From: Neelides folsomi
Lineage: Eukaryota; Arthropoda; Collembola; Neelipleona; Neelidae
NCBI GenBank assembly: GCA_034687125.1
Contig: JAQGBZ010000001.1
Coordinates: 496,001 to 560,000 of the forward strand
Reading direction: 5' to 3'
DNA: 64,000 bases
In this document: positions 2,562 to 16,300 of the stretch, piece by piece
Numbering within the stretch: the first letter of the stretch is position 1
Layout: each line of letters begins with the position of its first letter
Notes under the pieces: model-generated
What the model saw: the letters and a program-made list of their open reading frames with translations, nothing else
Database searches by the model: none
Told to the model about the DNA's origin: nothing
Translations under genes and position numbers: made by a program

Positions 2562-4590
2562 CACTTGCAGTTCACAATTTCCCTATTTTAAACCTTGCCC
2601 CACTCAATCGGTACGTAATTAAGATTGTAAGAGTCGTAAGGTAATGAATGTTATAATTAAAACACCTCTTCGTTTTTTTATCTCCTGTCTACTTGAGCCT
2701 TCTCGCGCTGGCGGCTCTTCATTTGGATTGGATCGATCCAAAGAGTTTCTCCTGTAGGTTCGGAGGGGTTTGTCAGGGGGCACCCGCGGACAGGTCTGTT
2801 CCTTCTCCTTCCTCAATCAAACTTTCGTATATTATCAACGGGCTATATATCTCTATTTACAAATAGAAACTTCACAAATACTTTCAACTGCAATCACCCC
2901 TTTCACGATCCACCCCGATGGTCACAACTTCACCTCCGACCCGGTCACGGTCCGAGGGGTTGAGGAAATGGAAATGCTACAGCGAACAAGTCGTCAATTG
3001 TCCACGGAGTCCGAGGAATTTCCCTTGCTGGCGATCTCTCTTTTGAAACTGAAGGTGGACGTCGGAGAGTTCCTCCTCTTCCTCTTTCATTCTTGCCTTC
3101 CCAACTGCCAGGATATCTCTCAAGGATCCGACCCTTAAACCGAACAACGGTTCACTCCAAACGAAGTCGGGGAAAGGGGCTCGGGAGAGAGTCGGATTGA
3201 CGGAGCTTGGAGGCTAACCTAGACTTGTTTATTACCTTCATGAGGTGGTGAGCGGAAGGAGGTTGAACTGGGCCCTCGGAGGTCAAAGGTTGAAGACAAT
3301 TGGGCGGTCAAGTCCCATGGAAAGGGGGGCTGGAGATGTGGAATCTGTGGCTCTGTTGTGGGCCGCTGAGGCTGCAGGACCTCTCAACTCTCCAACTACT
3401 GTCCTACTCTGACTCCGAGCATTGCTTTCCAACGAGCCCTGCGATTCGACGTCGAAACAAGTTAGTTTCCCTGTGTTGGAGGCGCAGCCGCTAGCCCAAT
3501 CCTTGCCACATTCCTCCCTAGCCCTCCAAACCATCCCGAGCCCCTATACCTCCTTATGCAACCCTCCGGCCCAGCTTCCAATCCCCCCTTCCAAGGGGGA
3601 TCCGGCCCCAGAGGTGGCAACTTCGCTCGGCTCAAATGGATCATTTCATTGGCTTCCGCTTTTCGCACCATTCACCCCCTTGACCCTTCCGAAATTCTTC
3701 AGACCCTCGCATGCGCCACTTTCAATCTTCTCTTTCAAATAGGATCTGTGTGGCAAATTCATCTTCAAAGATTCTTCTTCTCCCAACTTGTTCCTTGCTA
3801 ATACCGAATTTTGGAAGGGCGTTAATGAGACAAAGTAATTTTATTATTTAGGCACGATCCCCCTCAAAGAGACTCCAAAGAACAAGGAGCTTTTGACCAA
3901 AATGTCTTCGCATACTTTGGATTGGAGACTCCAATTTGGAGTCATCGGAGTGCTGTGTTATAGATCGGGATCGGAGACAAACTATAAATTATTGTTCAAA
4001 ATATCTTGCTCCTCTCTCCCGCTCTTTCCTAATGACATTAATATGGAGTTTATGAAGAGATTTCAATATTGAAATTATTGCCAAATGGAATTCTCTAGCT
4101 TGGGAGTTTATGACATGGATGATTTGGATCAAATTTGGATGAGATCATAGTGTTTTAGGATCGAAATTAGCTTATTGTAATCATTTATTTATGCATTTAT
4201 GCAATATACTCTATTATGATAATAGATATTGTAAGCATAATTTCATTATCTCATCCACAAGTGATCATTATCATGCATGAAAGACAACCGCTTTTATTGG
4301 GGTGCATCAAATGATTATAATGGCAATTCCCTCATCTTTTACGAGCATAAGTTGACAAAAGCATATGAAGTTGTCAAAGTTTTCCTCTTTTATTTTATGG
4401 GAGATTTCAGAAATAAGATGAAAAAAAATTAAATGGTTAAATGTAATAAATAATTTTAATAATAAATATAAAAATATTTTTAATTAGGAATAAAAATTAG
4501 AGCCATAACATGAAAATTGACAAGTGACAAATAGCAATAGTGTGTCCAGTATCAACTCCTTAATTGCATCAAGCTTCATACGAGTAGAGG
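2562..4590. other. Intergenic, divergent SAP130/TTLL3 promoter region
   Basis: About 2.0 kb between two head-to-head start codons. Bases 2650-3800 are clearly richer in G and C than the rest and probably hold 5' UTR and promoter of SAP130. Open frames occur on both strands here, but none resembles a protein family and none joins the SAP130 frame through good splice sites. Bases 3800-4590 are plain AT-rich sequence. A short palindrome of C and G runs lies at about 3582-3603. Confidence 0.5.
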
Positions 4591-7500
4591 ATGGACGAGA
4601 CGGAAGTGACAACAAATCGGGTTAAAAATGACATATCGAATGACAACCAACCTCCAGCTAATGAAAAATCTAAGAAAAATAAACCGGTCCACAGTTCAGG
4701 ATCAAAATCCCGGGAGGATGAGATAAATAAAAATGGGATTGTGGGTGAAACTTTTTCAAATGCAAAGAGCAAGGTGAACAGCAGAGAAAAAATTTCATCT
4801 CCGACCAAACTAGAATCCCAATCCCGGTTCAAGTTATTAAAAAGTATTTATGTTCATGAATTTATAATTATTTTTATTTATCCACACTGTTTTGTATTGA
4901 AATCGTACCTAAAAAATTCGCAATCTTACCAATATAACTTTTATATTTAATTTAATTAACTATCTTTTTAATTAAATTTATCTTCAGATGAATCTAAAGA
5001 AACCAGTCCCAAGGCTGCAACAGAACCCAGAATTAGCGTTTTAAATTCTCGGGTTGTCAATAACCATATGACTCCGATTTCGCCAACGACCATACCAATA
5101 TCAATGGTTAGTGGATTGAAGAAAACTCTTCATTCGCAGACGAATCTCCGAAAGGTTTATTCAGTCGGGCGGAATTATAATGGGAGCACTGAACGACTCG
5201 CGAAGCTTTCGGCCTTCCAAATACAAATTGACCGAGCGATGAAGGTGAGCTGAAAAATGAAAATGTTAAATCCTAAATGTCACTCGATTCAAATAGATAA
5301 AACAATGTTAACTATGCGCATTTTATACAAATATGTTCTAAATGTAGGAAAATCGAATCTATACAGTCGTCGGTCATTTTCCTCAACTCAAAACGGCCCT
5401 TAAACGGAGAGGATGGGTCGAGAAAAATTACAATTTGGGAATTCTCCGACCCATCAATTCTGTCTTTGCTGGCTGTCTGAATTTGAGAGGTTGATCTTAA
5501 TCTTTATTAAAATTCAAAGATGATAATTTAGTTAAATTCTGAGCTTCTTTATTCATATGATTTTAATAATTTATTTCTTCAAGGGTACAACGATGACAGC
5601 GAACAGAATTGGACAAATAGGATCTTGAGGGATTATCCTCCCGATTTCATTTGGATTATCCGAAGAGACAACGTTGATTTCCGTCGACTCCTCAAGGAAC
5701 AAATGATCAATAGGTTCCCTAGAGCTACTTTTACGACCAAAGTACGACCATTACACTCCATACATTAAACTACCAGTCTTATACACATTATTATTTATTA
5801 TTTAAACTTTCGGTCCCTCTCTCTATCTCTCAACACAGGCTTTCTCCATACAAAAAAATTCCCCCCAAATCCCCAAATTACATAATAAAATTGCTACAAA
5901 AAAGAGCTTTACAGAGTTAAATATTAAATGAGATTTGCATTTGTGAAGTGTAGATTAAACTTGAATAATTGGTTTTGTATATTTAAGACGGGGATTCATC
6001 ATGCGATCCAGAAAATTCATTGGTTTGCGGAAACGGGGATTTCCGAAGTTCTTTTCCCCCGGTGTTATCGTCTTTCATATGAAGAAGAGAAAACTGCATT
6101 CATTAACGATTACAGAATGACAGCTTGTATTTCTCTTCTGAAATGGCTCGTCTCTACTTTCGAAAGGTAAACAAATTATTACTACATTACCTGTATTAGA
6201 ATTTAAATGTACAATATAAATGTATCTGTAATCCTCTTGAATTTCATAAATGTTATCATTACAAAAGTAATAATGAAAATGATTTGAATTAAACAGGGAA
6301 GGAGAACCAGGCGTCATGAGTCACACGGGGAAAGTTTCAAGCATTTGCGTTGACTTCTGTTGTCGACACATCACGTAATTACCCATCACTTTGTTCCTAC
6401 AATAGACAATAATGGATTGACATTAAAATCCTCTTTCTCCTTTAATAACGTTCATAATAATACCTCTTGAACGTATTGATTGCATCTCTAATTAATGATA
6501 ATTGGATTAATTCCCCAGGAATTATATTCACATGAGGAGACACGAGGACATCGATTGGCACGTTCCTTCTCCATTTCTCCCTCAACATTGGATCATTTTC
6601 CTCAATCAATATTACAACGTGGTGTTTAAAAATCATAAATTGATGCCTAAGGAAATCACAGACACGGCGAAGGTTTTATTTAATGATTATTATTATACTA
6701 ATTATGTTGATTTTATTTATTAATAGTTAGTTAATGGGAATCCAAAATAGTTTAAATATTGAATTCAAATTTTATGATTAATTAATGAAATAATCTTTAA
6801 TCAATTTCTCATAAATAGGGAAAATATTTACTTGCAAAATCCTCTTTGAAACGTCTCACTCCCTTTTGGCCCCAAATGGAGCTTGATGGAATCAACAATC
6901 TCTGGATTTGCAAACCAGCAGCAAGATCCAGAGGCAATGGGATTATCATTATGAACGAAATTGACAAGATTATGGATCTCGTTTCTACGACCATGTCCCG
7001 TGAAGCCAATTGGGTTGTTCAAAAGTACATTGAAAGGCCGTTGGTGATTTACAAAACCAAGTTTGACATCCGGCAATGGTTTCTTATGACGGATGCGAAT
7101 CCGCTTACAATTTGGTTTTACAAGTAATTTAATTTAATTTTCTAATTAATTTTCCCTTTGTCTAAATATTACCTCGTATATAGTAAATTACACCGAAAGT
7201 AACTAAATTACGTAGAATTTTGGTGGTTTTAAATAACATGTTTATTTTGAATCACAGAGATTGTTATTTTCGCTTTTGCTCAAAGCCATTCACCTTAGAA
7301 AATTTCCACGAGAGCGTTCATTTATGTAACAATGCCGTACAATCAAAGTAAGCTAGTTGTAATTAATTTAATTTTAACTTTAGTTTAAAAATAATACAAT
7401 AAGGGAATTATTAGGAACTATTACTTACATTATAAATGTTCTTATTTAAATGTTCATAATCTGAAACATGCAGGAAAAAATGATTAAATGAATATAATTT

Positions 7501-8780: not shown

Positions 8781-9852
8781 AATACCAAGTAAAACAAGGA
8801 AATTGAATCCTCTCCTAACTACTCAAAACCCTCCAATTCAAGGACACACTTGACACAATCACACACCTTTCTATTTAGACATTACAGAAAACCTTCTATT
8901 TATACAAATCCTAGTAAATAAACTTTAATCTATTGTTCTTAAATTAATATTAGTTTCTAATTCTCGGTTTCAATATTTTATATTAGGTAATAACAGGTTT
9001 AAAATAAATGTATTCGAATGACTTTACTAATCTTTTTCTATTAATATTTATAATAAATTCTGAAAATTTCTACAAATGCGTATTTAATAACGAAGACAAA
9101 AACACGATGCTATATCCTAAGCTCTCTAGATTAAAAAACTGTGGGCTTAATGTCCAAGTATAAAAATTAATCAAAAACGAATATCACACATTTATTCTCG
9201 AACTGTGAGTCAAAAAAGAATCACTTTATACATTTTAAGTAATAAAAGTCAATTATAATAGTCATAATATTTATTTAACATTGGGATAAGTATACAAACA
9301 TGATTTTATTTTACTTTAACTAATCCAAAGCAAAAATTGCATTTATATCAATTTATAAAAATTTGCTAGTCCGTAAATGACTAAATATTTTTTTAAATCA
9401 CCTAAAACCTAACATTAAAAGGAAAATGCCATATAAGTTAATATTGTCAGTAAATTGAACCCATTTAAAAATAAATAACAAAATCTCGGTTTATTCAACT
9501 TTAACAAATAACAGAACTTGGTAATATTAATAAGAAAATGAAAAATTCACTGATGCCTTTGAAAAACTTACATAAATAACAAGACCCCGAATAAATTAAC
9601 AATCAATGAAACTTTCAATTGAAAAATCGAGCCAGACACTATAGAGAGTTTACACACATATGAATGGGAGGTCGTCAGTTTTTAGAAAGTGCACAATGAA
9701 GGGTGCCTATGGTAAAGATGTGTAAAATTGGGAAATCTGGAAATTGACAAGTTGAGAACAATGAGCAAACCTGGGCGACGAGGAATCTCTTCTGGCTTGC
9801 TCGAGGTCGAAAATGCGAGTTATTGACGAGGCGAAGGGACGGGAGATGCGAA
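8781..9852. other. Convergent 3' intergenic region
   Basis: AT-rich sequence between the stop codons of the TTLL3-like gene (plus) and ARGLU1 (minus). It should hold both 3' UTRs; several AATAAA-like signals occur on both strands. No coding or repeat structure was seen. Confidence 0.5.
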
Positions 9853-12689
9853 CTATTCAGGGGTGGGCTTGAAGGAAAAAGATAGGCGCGGGCGAGAATT
9901 GTTTTTCCCCAGGATTTTCTTTTGCTCGTCCTTCACTCGTTTTTCTTGCTCTTTTTTAAGTCGCTGTCGCTCCTCGTCAATCTTTCTTTGATCTTCAACC
10001 ATTTGAAGCCGTTCTTCTGCCTGGAAATCAAATACAAAAATTCGATCAAAATCCATTTTATATTCATTTATTCATCGATTCCTTAATTCAATATTTCAAT
10101 ATAAAGCTAAAATATTTAACATTCAACTTGTAAAAATATAAGTGTGTGGTAAAATACAATCATAAATATTTTGAATAAATTCAAAAATTCTATTAATTGA
10201 TTAATTGAGAAAGTGAAGATTATTAATTTTGCGAAAAAAATGTCACTTTCTCATCCTGAGCGCTTTAGGATATGGGATAATCACTAACACTCTGGCAATT
10301 CGAAAGCATTACTTTTGCACCGACATAGAAGTTAATTTTCAATTGCTTGAAATCAACTAAAGCCGACAGTGCTTTCATATTTATCCTCATTGATTAATTT
10401 ATAATTAAGATGAAGTATTAAGCTTACCAATTTCCGCTGAGCTTCTTCTATCTTTTTATTATTCTCTTCCATGATGCGCTCAAGCTCCTCCCGCTTCTGT
10501 CTCTCTTCCTCCTAGAAAAGGGAAGGAATTGGATTAGCGAATTAAGAACGAGGTTGATTTAAGGACAAGTTCACCTCCTTGACTAGATCTATCGAGCTAT
10601 CAGCCAATCATTATGAGAGTGATTGGCTCCCATAACTGACTCTCTTATTCGAGCTTCTTAAAACAAAAGAAAAGCAAATATAGAGGTAATTGGATTAATG
10701 AGGGAGACGTTGAGGGGCGATGGCGCGGGACCAGCCACGTCCCGTCGGCTGAAAGAAGAGAATGAGAAAATATGAGTGAAATACAATGAAATACTACCTG
10801 AGTTTCACCGACCCAGCCGTTTCTTCCGCTGTCACTCCTTTCAATCACCAATTGACAAACACTTACCAAAAATATTACAATTTCATTCTTCCGCTTTCCT
10901 TCACACTATAAAAGCTCATGTCTAAAAAAGTCGACGCCTTGCCATTTCCATTTTAAGTCACTCCCAATCGTCGTTTCATTTTTAATTAACTATTGGGGTC
11001 ATACAACTACGTTCATGATCGCATTAGCAATTAAATTATACTCGTTTCATAAATTCACATAAATTGGCGTATTTTGTATGAAAAAAAGAAATATTATTCC
11101 TATATTATGATTAAATGTTTAACAAATGGTTATTTAGTTAATGTGTGAAAAGTTTAGACATTGAATTGACCAGAACTGAAAGAACGAGACAAACAAAAAG
11201 AAGGAGCCAATTTATATTTTAAAAAAATAATTGTTAAAAGGCAATGAGTATAAAAAGGTTCATGAGTTGGCTACAGGACGGAATGAGTCTCAATAAATAA
11301 GAGAGAAATGCCGAGAGTGAACTGGACCCTGCAGTTGAAACTTATTTTTTTCGTGCCATTCCTACATATTTGATTACACATGTATTGAGATATATTATTA
11401 CTCCGCTCTGCTCCATTAAATATTAAATAAAAGGAAAGGGGGGAGAAGAATAGCTAAAAAAATAAATCCCACTACGAGTCCAGCGCATTCAAAGCATCTA
11501 TTTCATAATGTAGTCAAATCGATTGCTGAATTTTTTTACTTTTCTTTTTTATATAAAATGTGATATAACAAAATAGGATTTATAGACTTTTTAAATACAA
11601 ACATTTAATTAAGACCATCTGAATCTCAATTATATAATTAATATCTCGAGTTCTGTATATAATAAATATAGTTACATGTATTAGTTGCTTCAAAATATGG
11701 ACTTTGGGAATTAACAGTTAGAAAACTAGTGATTGACATTTGTTTATATAATTTAATTAATAGTAGGACTTTTTAATAAAAGAAGTCCGTGATTGACTTT
11801 GACTCTTTGGAAATTTCGGGACAATGGAGCAGAGCTAAATGTTGGTCAATTAAATTGGTAAGGTTGTGTAACATAACATTGGAGTCATCAATATCATCCA
11901 GAAGGAATGAGAGGCAATAAGAAAGCGGAATAATGTTACTAGAATTAGAGTCTACCTCTCTTCTCCGCTCTTCTTCAAGCTGGGCGGCCTTTTGGCGCTG
12001 GAGCTCTTCCATCATCTCCTTCTCCATGGCCGCTTTGGCCTCTTCCACTCGTCGGAGCACCTCGGCTTCGATCTCGTCCTTCCGTCGCTCCAATTCCTCC
12101 TCCACTCGCTTAGCCACCAAGTCTTCAATTCTCTTTGCCGTCTCTTCTTCAACTAACTTCGCCTCCAATTCTTTCTGCCGCCTAACAATTTAAACAAGTT
12201 TTACTTCCCAACTTTTCATTTATTATTTAAATCATCTTCCTTAATAATCAATCTATCATATTTAAAATAATAAAATTTTAAATTAAAACCAATTATTTTT
12301 AATACCTTTGACGTTCTAACTCAGCTAGTCTTTCAATTTCTTTAATAGGTCGACTGCGACTCCTACTTCGAGAACTGCTACCACTACTGTTACTTGAACT
12401 TGAATTTGACCTACGAAGCATCGTTTAAAATTAATAACATAATAATCTTTTTCTTTAACATATAAAAAGTATCCATATTTTATAATTTATGTGTTTCTTA
12501 CGATGATCTATTTCTTGACCTCCTCCTTTCCTTAATTCCTCTTCTTGACTTTCTCCCATCTCGATCTCTCTCATTCCTTGATCTTGATCTCTTTGATCGA
12601 CTTTTCTTTGACTTGTGATGGTGACGTCCAGTTCGATTAATTCTGGTAGATGGAGAAATGGACCTAGATCTACTTCGTTTTCTTCCCAT
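9853..12689 (-). CDS. ARGLU1: ARGLU1, arginine- and glutamate-rich splicing/transcription coactivator
   Basis: Five minus-strand exons: 12502-12689, 12306-12410, 11956-12181, 10428-10511 and 9853-10020; 256 residues against about 273 in human. The first 95 residues are an RS-type domain (repeated Arg-Ser, Lys-Arg) expected to be nuclear and phosphorylated. The rest is a charged coiled coil with [39 protein letters not shown] and the diagnostic tail [18 protein letters not shown]. In vertebrates ARGLU1 is a Mediator-linked coactivator and splicing modulator that controls its own level through unproductive splicing. Exon 3 ends and exon 4 begins in phase 0; the intron between them (10512-11955) is by far the longest in the gene and carries exon-like sequence, reported separately. 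Head to head with PEX1, 678 bp between the two start codons. Confidence 0.95.
10575..10748 (-). other. Candidate poison (premature-stop) cassette exon in ARGLU1 intron 3
   Basis: Inside the 1.44 kb ARGLU1 intron, the minus strand has a strong 3' splice site (CTCATTCTCTTCTTTCAG ending at 10749) and, 174 bases further, a good donor (AAGGAG|GTGAAC). Bases 10690-10748 are more GC-rich than the surrounding intron. Joined to exon 3, the frame reads 17 codons and meets TAA. A 9-bp hairpin (10602-10610 with 10620-10628) lies near the donor. Just upstream, 10798-10905 has usable splice sites and 36 open codons with purine-rich runs that could act as an enhancer or another alternative exon. ARGLU1 in vertebrates is known for autoregulatory unproductive splicing; a parallel here is inferred, with no transcript evidence. 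Confidence 0.4.
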
Positions 12690-13367
12690 TTCTAAAGATA
12701 AAATAAAAAATTGTATTTAGTATTATATATTTCCTTATTATAACTATTTTTATTAAACACAATATGGAGTTTCATTTGGCTTACTTTATTTGAAGGTTCG
12801 ACAATGGAAAAGGAAAAGAGATAAGAATCCCGTGTTTATCGCTGCAGAACGGAGAATTGAAAAATATGGTGCAGGGAATTCAAACCGATGCGCCCAGACT
12901 GGAGGTTCCAGAGATTACATAATATGAAGACTTTTATTGTGAAATTCCTTCTTGAATTAAGATTTAGGAGGAGATTAATCTTTGAGTGAAACTCTCCGGA
13001 TCTTCTTGACCAGATTCACATTTTGTAGGTGTAAATGTGAAGACCGTTAAGTGCGAATAGAACGAGGTTAATTAATTTTGTACGACGTGAAATCAAGAGG
13101 TTCTCGCTTCTTGTGTTGGGCCAACGCAAACGCTGAAAGCAGAAGGAAGGAGAAGGGAAAGTTGGGTAAGTTCAATCAAATCATTTATAGATGGCCGGAA
13201 TGAAGGAAAAACTTCATTACGCTTCAACTCACTTCCGACCATTTTCTCAATTCCCCCCAAACGTTATGCTTTGATTTGACTTTCTCTCAATTGCAATACT
13301 GAAGCACTACATTATTTATTTAACTCCCAATTAAACCCATCTTGATTTAATATTTTTTAACAGTACC
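12690..13367. promoter_or_regulatory. Probable shared ARGLU1/PEX1 promoter region
   Basis: A 678-bp gap between two divergent start codons. The middle (about 12780-13290) is richer in G and C than the flanks. No TATA box stands out on either side, as expected for housekeeping genes. Precise start sites cannot be read from the sequence. Confidence 0.45.
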
Positions 13368-16300
13368 ATGAAAAGATGTGTGCAGATTGATTTTACCGGA
13401 GCGAGGACGGCATGTCTAGTGGAAACTTCTTGGGCTTTGAGTTCAAACACACTTAAAACAAAGATTCCAGTAATATTTTATTTTACTTATCTTAAAATAG
13501 CTTAAATTGAAACTTAAATAATTTAGATATATTTTAGTGCCTCAGCCATAATTGTTTCAACTTATTTAGAAATTGTGATTTTCAGTATTATTTATATTAT
13601 GCAGATATTAAAGATTAAAACCAAAGATGACAATACTCATTACGTCTCTGTGAATTCAAATAACAATACTGGTCTTAAAGACTCGATAAGAATAAATGGG
13701 CTATTTGGCAAATGTCTTGGGCTTGAAAATAAAGATGAGATTTCAATTGAAGAAATTGAAAACGAGACTCAAATTGTTAGAAAATCTGTCGTTTCTTGTG
13801 TTTCTGAAGATGATTGGGAAATTTTGGTAATATACTAATATTACTGACAGTACATATAATGAACTTGATTGTACAGGGTGGGGCATAAGTATCTTTATTT
13901 TTTATACGATTGTTTATTTAAAAAAGAAAGATACTTATGGCCCACCCCTGTATAATCAATTAATTAATTTATTATTCAATCAATCAACATTAGGAATCCA
14001 ATGCTGAGATGTTTTCTGCCACCCTTCTTAATCAACTCCGAGTTGTTTATAAGGGTCTCAACTTTCCATTTTGGATTACCAAATCTCTTTCAATAAACTT
14101 GAAAATCGGTAATCTTGATATTAAGTAAAATATGTTTGTTTTTTATCTTTATTGTTAATTTTGGTTAATTGTGTAATCTTTTTCAAATTATCTAGATTCA
14201 TTAGAACCTGAATTGGAATTCGGAATATTGGAAGCCAATTCTGAACTGATAATTCCTTCATTAACGTCAAACTCTTCAATATTCCAAATTCCTAATATTT
14301 TGAAATTACGAGTTCATCCAATACAACTACAATATCATTCGATTTTACCAAGCTCTGTTCTTGTTTTGAGTAATGTTCACCACGCTTTCATTCACAATTC
14401 AAGTTTACCAAGTCTTCACAATGAAATTAAAAAGTTTTTTTATGGAAAGTTGGTGGGGCCAAATGCGAAAAACTGGGATATTTACCTGAAGATTTTCATC
14501 ATCGAACAAATAGATTTAGATCCAAATCTCCTTTCTTCATTTCCCATTACAAACCCTCCATGTATCTTCCTCCATCATAAACTTTTATCTGACAAATTAC
14601 CAATGAAATCCTATGTTTTGATTGAAGAAGTTTCTGAAAAAGCCTTTGAGTCAATTCCACCCAAATATTTTCCAGTTGAAAATGAGATGCCACTACAAAC
14701 AAATGAGTAAATTAAAAATTATTTATTACTACGATTATATTTATAGTTTCCTAATAGTGCTTTTATCCATGTACATGTTTAATCATTTGATTGTATTGTA
14801 CTTTGTTACTCAATAATAACGTCGGTTTTAACCAAAGTTAATTAACCGTTTCAGACCAGCTTTCATCGGATTGATTGAAGAAGCAAAGAATTTTGCAAAA
14901 TCATCTTTAGCTTTGAGATCTCCACATGGAATCATCGGCCCAGCTTTTGGCAACTTGTTAATTACAGGTTTTATATTGCAAATAAACGATATTGTTTGAG
15001 AGAAGAGAGGAGCAGAGGCATCTAATACAACCATTTTATTTTCTAATGATTAATTAAATCTTTTATGATTTTTATAAAAGGGAAAGAAGGAAGTGGTAAA
15101 AGTTGGCTTTTGAGCAAAGTGAGTGATGACTTATCGTCCTTCCCTTATTTCGTCCATACCGAATTAATTGAATGTGCCAAACTGCGAGGGAAAAAGGCCG
15201 AAAGCATCGAGAAGGAATTGAAGTCCGCATTGGACCGTGGGAGTCAATTTGGTCCGTCGCTGCTCCTCCTTGACGATTTAGACATCCTGATCCCTAAGGG
15301 AAAAGCTGACCAACAGAATTTACAAGAGGAATTTCAACATCTCAAGTTAGTTATCCTCCATTGTCTTTTTCTTAAGGACTTCCCTTCTCCCATTCATTTG
15401 TTCATTCGAATCACTTGCGAGGCTCATCCTTAAAGGCCTTAAAGGAATTAATATAAATTGAATATGAAAGTAATTGGAGGCTTCTCAGGCCACCCATCGA
15501 TAATTTGATGGACGTCACACTCCGCCTGCTCACCTACTAAACTAATTATCTAATTTCATACCTGGGTTATTTCTATAAAGGTCCCTTGAGCAGAATCCCT
15601 AATAAATTAATACAGCTTCATTACATTTCACATCACAGGCCTTTCCAGACTAATAATTCTAATACAAATTAATTGATGAAATAATGAAGGTAATGTGCGA
15701 AATAAATTTTAACTATGAATGCATACCATCCTTACAAATACCTTTGATAAATAGCCTCTTAGCTGTGAATGTTATGTAATCAATTATGATCTAAGGTTTA
15801 CAACCAACTATACTAATTAAATTTTAATTTATTAATAAACTATTAAAACAAATAATTACAGATCCTGTTTGATCGGTATTTTACAAATCCTAGCTTTGGT
15901 TAAATACTAAATAAACTTTTGTCTTTTATTTTCAGAATTTCTGAAACAATGATTGAAACAATTTTAAGTGCCGAAGATGAACAAATGGTTGTGATTTGCA
16001 CAGTACGGGGATTTGAATCGTTGGATTGTTATTGGAAGTCTCGCGAAGGATTTCATTTCTTTGGGAAGGAAATTCACATCCCCCCTCCAACAAAGGTTCG
16101 TTTATTTGTTCAATGTCAGGCATAATAAATATAAACATTAAAGAGTCATATCACCATCATTTCATTCTTGTATTAAACTCCATATAAACCTGTTTTAAAA
16201 ATACCCATGATCTTGACGTATGTACTAAATGTTTTGAGAGATAAAGGGTCCATTAAGTTAAGCCTTCTTTTTCCATTTCAGTTTAATAAGCTCTCATTTG

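Follow-up and report, generated by a model that had tools for sequence, protein, structure and literature searches.

The longest intron of the ARGLU1 gene contains a 174-nt block, at positions 10748-10575 on the minus strand, that may restrict ARGLU1 output by serving as an unproductive or decoy exon. We advance this reading tentatively, judging it to have a little less than an even chance of being correct, and as the best explanation of the sequence features described below. The strongest sign for the candidate exon is a GC-rich island that begins at its acceptor, which outweighs the features on which the original prediction was built. That prediction, of a feedback cassette in this lineage, stands in part: the block carries the best splice-site pair of the intron together with the exon-like island, but a second block lying upstream of it (10905-10798) is doubtful as a joined cassette exon. 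All positions refer to the window, the whole 64-kb stretch of DNA that was analysed.

The ARGLU1 gene and the background set

Rebuilt from its translation and splice sites, the ARGLU1 coding region (9853-12689, minus strand) comprises five coding exons (12689-12502, 12410-12306, 12181-11956, 10511-10428 and 10020-9853), which encode a protein of 256 aa and are separated by introns of 91, 124, 1444 and 407 nt. The protein belongs to the ARGLU family, matching Pfam PF15346 over the whole profile (1-149 of 149; 3.8e-50, obtained with a query that had one additional R at the exon 2/3 joint). A search of the 75.1-Mb genome with exons 3-5 (E up to 0.001) hit no locus other than this ARGLU1 gene, and comparison of the protein and of a degenerate exon 3 pattern with viral and genome contigs identified no relative. 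Intron 3 (10512-11955, 1444 nt, phase 0), the longest of the gene as had been claimed, has a GC content of 33% and runs from donor GAG/GTAGAC to acceptor TTTTCTAG/GA, the slash marking the splice junction; in the protein it falls between EERRRE and EEERQK. Its own sites fall at the 35th percentile, below the median, for the exon 3 donor and at the 67th percentile for the exon 4 acceptor. Beside ARGLU1, the window also holds a long hairpin (13866-13962, z -10.2, ends CAGGGTGGGGCATAAGTATC), evidently a miniature inverted-repeat element: 40 places scored (of 422 candidates), the hairpin itself included, show at least 90% identity over about 75-105 bp.

Splice-site strength and base composition were assessed against a background formed by the 64-kb window and the adjacent 200 kb (264 kb in total), on which a small two-strand gene-finding model was trained iteratively. 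Donor and acceptor models were built from 104 high-confidence introns, those in which both flanking exons have strong coding scores; all of these introns were predicted, with no support from RNA, and the scores are not cross-validated. The acceptor and donor of the candidate exon are absent from this training set. The ab initio predictor, which was blind to the finding, used acceptor 10748 for a predicted exon, ending it not at 10575 but at 10709, on a very poor donor (1st percentile). Its ARGLU1 model was otherwise imperfect, with exon 3 extended beyond its donor to 11798.

The candidate exon and the island behind its acceptor

The candidate exon begins at acceptor 10748 (CTCTTCTTTCAG), which scores 10.68 bits and lies at the 84th percentile of the 104 high-confidence acceptors of this genome, and ends at donor 10575 (GAG/GTGAAC), with 6.50 bits and the 52nd percentile of the corresponding donors. 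The strong acceptor and good donor 174 bases on that had been reported are therefore present, and functional-looking sites bound a block of exon size, as in a poison cassette exon. Among acceptor-donor pairs 50-300 nt apart in intron 3 this pair ranks first, and branch-point-like words place an A at 15, 25, 29 and 39 nt upstream of the block.

The main rival of the decoy-exon reading is a pseudo-exon arising by chance, that is, an unused splice-like pair in a long intron whose in-frame stop and open codons are accounted for by base composition. We regard it as rather unlikely, and much of what the splice sites, the stop and the hairpin contribute is nonetheless in keeping with it. Dinucleotide shuffles equalled the score sum of the pair in 58 of 500 cases, and real non-coding chunks in 7 of 132 (66 chunks, taken on both strands). 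The corresponding odds lie between about 1 in 9 and 1 in 19, which makes the splice sites alone weak evidence. Both site scores were equalled in 8 of 500 shuffles and 2 of 132 real chunks, and none of the 18 other high-confidence introns longer than 800 nt reaches the score sum of the pair. Reading on in phase 0 from exon 3, translation meets a TAA (10697-10695) after 17 codons, as stated originally. This premature stop lies 120 nt upstream of the donor of the block, and so beyond 50 nt from that junction, but a stop is expected in 98% of cases within 58 codons, and its presence is for that reason uninformative.

The 9-bp hairpin described near the donor exists as an inverted repeat, AGCCAATCA/TGATTGGCT (10602-10628, with arms at 10602-10610 and 10620-10628), and is likewise uninformative. 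No folding signal was detected in context relative to shuffled sequences (z -0.7 for the donor half and -1.1 for the cassette); the 44 nt of the hairpin region folded in isolation gave z -2.2, a stability matched by 5 of 200 shuffles, and the best fold of these 44 nt omits the 9-bp stem. Two other identities were tried and rejected for this part of the sequence. Rfam returned no match to non-coding RNA either in the window at the gathering threshold or in 9700-13300 at E up to 1, and no tRNA was found. Nor does the sequence look like a repeat or a transposon: in a search that skipped simple repeats and very common words, 10575-10905 matched one place in the genome, as did each of two 86-nt pieces taken from it and its flank.

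What the chance account does not readily reproduce is the GC island (10700-10749), which went unmentioned in the earlier work and appears to exceed chance expectation. The island has 74% GC and 7 CpG and begins at the acceptor, so that GC content steps from 26% in the 46 nt before position 10748 to 74% in the 46 nt after it. In the 264 kb, counted on both strands and under any predictor label, 28,285 AGs have a GT partner, and of these acceptor 10748 is the sole one to combine at least 5 bits with 70% GC behind it. When at least 5 bits is combined with a GC step of at least 0.40, six AGs qualify, 10748 among them; three of the other five, but not the remaining two, mark the start of a predicted coding exon. 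An earlier count, limited to 16,449 AGs labelled as non-coding, had found none with at least 0.70 GC and an acceptor of at least 5 bits, but is partly circular because the predictor tends to label GC-rich stretches as coding, and the recount was for this reason made on all AGs. Equally good sites (10 and 6.4 bits) occurred at six of the 16,449, and none of these six had a GC content of at least 0.55.

Nine of the 11 GC islands of at least 0.70, including that of ARGLU1, overlap predicted coding sequence, and none of the 104 high-confidence exon starts attains 0.70 GC, so that the ARGLU1 island exceeds an ordinary exon start, a point against the candidate. Under a model contrasting exon and intron composition, the first 46 nt of the candidate exon are as exon-like as the top 0.17% of non-coding sequence. 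The block taken as a whole (174 nt) reaches only the top 10%, and its other 128 nt do not resemble an exon, a score as high being found in 39% of non-coding sequence. The full 331 nt of 10575-10905 are ordinary in GC content, being equalled by 11% of non-coding windows.

A second argument against a chance origin comes from SRSF5, for which unproductive splicing at one intron is described as essentially universal across metazoa, the fly included (PMC4379411). The SRSF5/B52 orthologue was identified in this genome (best solved relative SRSF6, 2.3e-42), and an intron of 1885 nt interrupts it between SWQ and DLKDYM (SWQ/DLKDYM; L038, reverse-complement coordinates 3425-5310). We take this to be the published unproductive intron, human intron 5. 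It contains GC-rich islands like that of ARGLU1 and is likely to be a poison-exon region. When the 21 introns longer than 800 nt are ranked by their richest 50 nt, SRSF5 (0.76) is followed by ARGLU1 (0.74), one control (0.72) and the others at 0.66 or less, a ranking devised after the ARGLU1 island had been noticed and calibrated on one yardstick gene. The predicted 1588-nt intron of Tra2 showed no island (0.58) and no recognisable poison exon. The splice-score sum singled out no poison exon in SRSF5, the best inner pair reaching 13.7 bits, below several controls, and we accordingly do not rely on it as a detector. When the ARGLU1 intron was compared in same-strand orientation with the introns of SRSF5 and Tra2, only short chance matches appeared.

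Upstream of the candidate exon lies the second splice-bounded block of the original prediction (10798-10905, minus strand, 108 nt), which is purine-rich as described (66% purine) and, read in the frame of exons 3 and 4, stays open for its 36 codons. An open run of this length is expected by chance in about 9% of cases and thus does not exceed chance, which again suits a pseudo-exon. Its acceptor and donor lie at the 27th and 61st percentiles, and exon joining of the two blocks is unlikely because the 49-nt gap between them is smaller than the shortest high-confidence intron (53 nt). Two copies of AGCGGAAGAA lie within the block on the minus strand (10886-10895 and 10821-10830), out of four in the 264 kb counted on both strands, the motif having been picked after the repeat was noticed. 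We presume AGCGGAAGAA to be an enhancer-like motif of the GAAGAA type. The block is probably a splicing enhancer for the downstream exon, and less likely an exon.

The DNA itself shows the splice sites and how strong they are relative to others, the premature TAA, the step in GC content and the enhancer-like repeats, and from these features we infer how exon recognition, inclusion or intron detention, decay and self-feedback of ARGLU1 might proceed. When abundant, ARGLU1 or an SR-type protein would bind the purine-rich block at 10905-10798 as well as the GC-rich island with which the exon begins, and this binding would promote spliceosome assembly at the strong 10748 acceptor. Two branches could follow. 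In the first, the candidate exon would be spliced in, so that translation would stop at the 18th codon past exon 3 and the mRNA would decay. In the second, the candidate exon would serve as a decoy and hold up the splicing of intron 3, which itself has a donor weaker than the median. Less ARGLU1 protein would result in both cases.

Alternative explanations for the features of intron 3

A different possibility is regulated retention or an early 3' end of intron 3, with no cassette involved, which would yield a truncated ARGLU1 or a retained-intron RNA that is decayed. We consider this distinctly unlikely as the sole explanation, and it is compatible with the decoy-exon model rather than exclusive of it. 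If the exon 3 donor, itself at the 35th percentile, is ignored, the reading frame continues for 60 open codons (11773-11955, minus strand) to a TAA at 11775-11773, with a coding log-odds of +11.6. Runs of at least 59 codons past the donor occur at 1 of the 104 high-confidence donors. In contrast, the frame-free exon-likeness of this read-through reaches only the top 11%, and its peptide has no Pfam match, as is also the case for the other peptides in the set of four short in-frame or opposite-strand peptides searched, that of 10905-10798 included. ATTAAA occurs on the gene strand at 11777 and 11757, at the end of the read-through, yet poly(A)-type words are common locally (eight AATAAA or ATTAAA in the 2656 nt scanned).

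The same part of the intron contains a long-range inverted repeat of 13 perfect bp (arms at 11405-11417 and 11823-11835), which in RNA forms 14 pairs with one G-U. Its predicted helix of -23.8 kcal/mol was reached by none of 100 shuffles but by 2 to 3 of 66 real non-coding chunks, and it is given little weight for that reason. A precedent for an early 3' end is provided by the SRSF5 gene of frog and zebrafish, in which early polyadenylation within a comparable exon is reported (PMC4379411).

The region 10600-10750 might instead be a regulatory element acting at the DNA level, as an internal promoter or enhancer, and we regard this as very improbable. Seven CpG within 50 nt would suit such an element, as would AGCCAATCA and TGATTGGCT, which are inverted, CCAAT-box-like and 18 bp apart from start to start. 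We assume that these two words resemble NF-Y sites. A 15-mer at the distal end of the GC island, GAGGGAGACGTTGAG (10700-10714, plus strand), is found at five places and also bears on this reading, since its RNA orientation is opposite in ARGLU1 and SRSF5, and DNA therefore fits it better than RNA. A DNA element leaves unexplained, however, why the island starts exactly at a strong acceptor, and three of the five places of the 15-mer are without recognisable context.

The 15-mer itself is rare. Five exact copies were found in 75 Mb, against none for a reversed control; when two mismatches or fewer were allowed, the 15-mer had 347 copies and the control 238. Among these 347, 13 have one mismatch and 329 have two, from which roughly 0.3 exact copies would be expected by chance. 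Besides the window (10700-10714), the exact copies lie at C131:111257-111271, C21:358410-358424, C62:124391-124405 and C71:216114-216128. Two of the five places are in introns of splicing factors, ARGLU1 and the SRSF5/B52 island, where the copy is in the opposite RNA orientation to that of ARGLU1. At the three others, 3-kb stretches contained doubtful predicted exons only, and two of these places have 20 nt in common. Having been spotted by eye after the SRSF5 island was printed, the 15-mer is treated as a lead only. The broadest scenario that could be built on it is highly speculative and, in our estimation, has only a slim chance of being correct: ARGLU1 would have limited itself through an exon in the same intron since the common ancestor of arthropods and vertebrates, and in this genome the unproductive introns of ARGLU1 and SRSF5 would be coupled, at the DNA or RNA level, by a shared rare 15-nt element with complementary transcripts.

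Least probable of all is that 10905-10798 is an alternative coding exon adding 36 residues without a stop, for although its 108 nt are in frame and keep the full open reading frame, it has a coding log-odds of -1.0 in frame, no Pfam match and a weak acceptor at the 27th percentile, and would interrupt a domain whose profile is matched from end to end.

Comparison with known unproductive splicing

If real, the decoy exon proposed for intron 3 would extend unproductive splicing of ARGLU1 to arthropods, and would make it testable whether this feedback is ancestral to animals, as for SRSF5, or has originated repeatedly. Where a genome is AT-rich and RNA data are lacking, the search for GC islands could then also be used for finding other poison exons. 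The literature searched, with most subscription journals outside its scope, yielded no paper on unproductive splicing of ARGLU1 in arthropods.

The analogy with vertebrate ARGLU1 on which the original prediction drew is sound. Self-regulation of ARGLU1 via an ultraconserved element is described in one report (PMC10447433), and a review describes the mammalian case, in which an ARGLU1 intron is retained and has a poison cassette exon (PMC5602073). The vertebrate element and the candidate have in common the gene, a long internal intron and a splice-bounded block with an in-frame stop; they differ in that conservation and self-regulation are described for the former, whereas the latter is a candidate in genomic sequence. 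The ultraconserved element of vertebrate ARGLU1 was reportedly first presented by Pirnie et al., and we understand it to sit in intron 2.

With SRSF5/B52, the likeness resides in the 1885-nt intron of the orthologue in this genome, which has GC islands as ARGLU1 does. The two introns differ in sequence, sharing nothing beyond chance except one 15-mer that lies on opposite RNA strands.

A third system, intron 4 of OGT, illustrates the decoy branch of the model. There, decoy exons are reported to belong to a retained intron, with weak decoy sites and a cassette of 143-153 nt (PMC12017769). The ARGLU1 candidate resembles these decoys as an exon-like block in a long intron, of similar length (174 nt), which would keep the intron from being removed more by being recognised than by being included; unlike the weak OGT sites, its acceptor is strong. 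Taken together, the candidate would belong to a known kind of control, the self-limiting poison exon, a placement that its sequence moderately supports.
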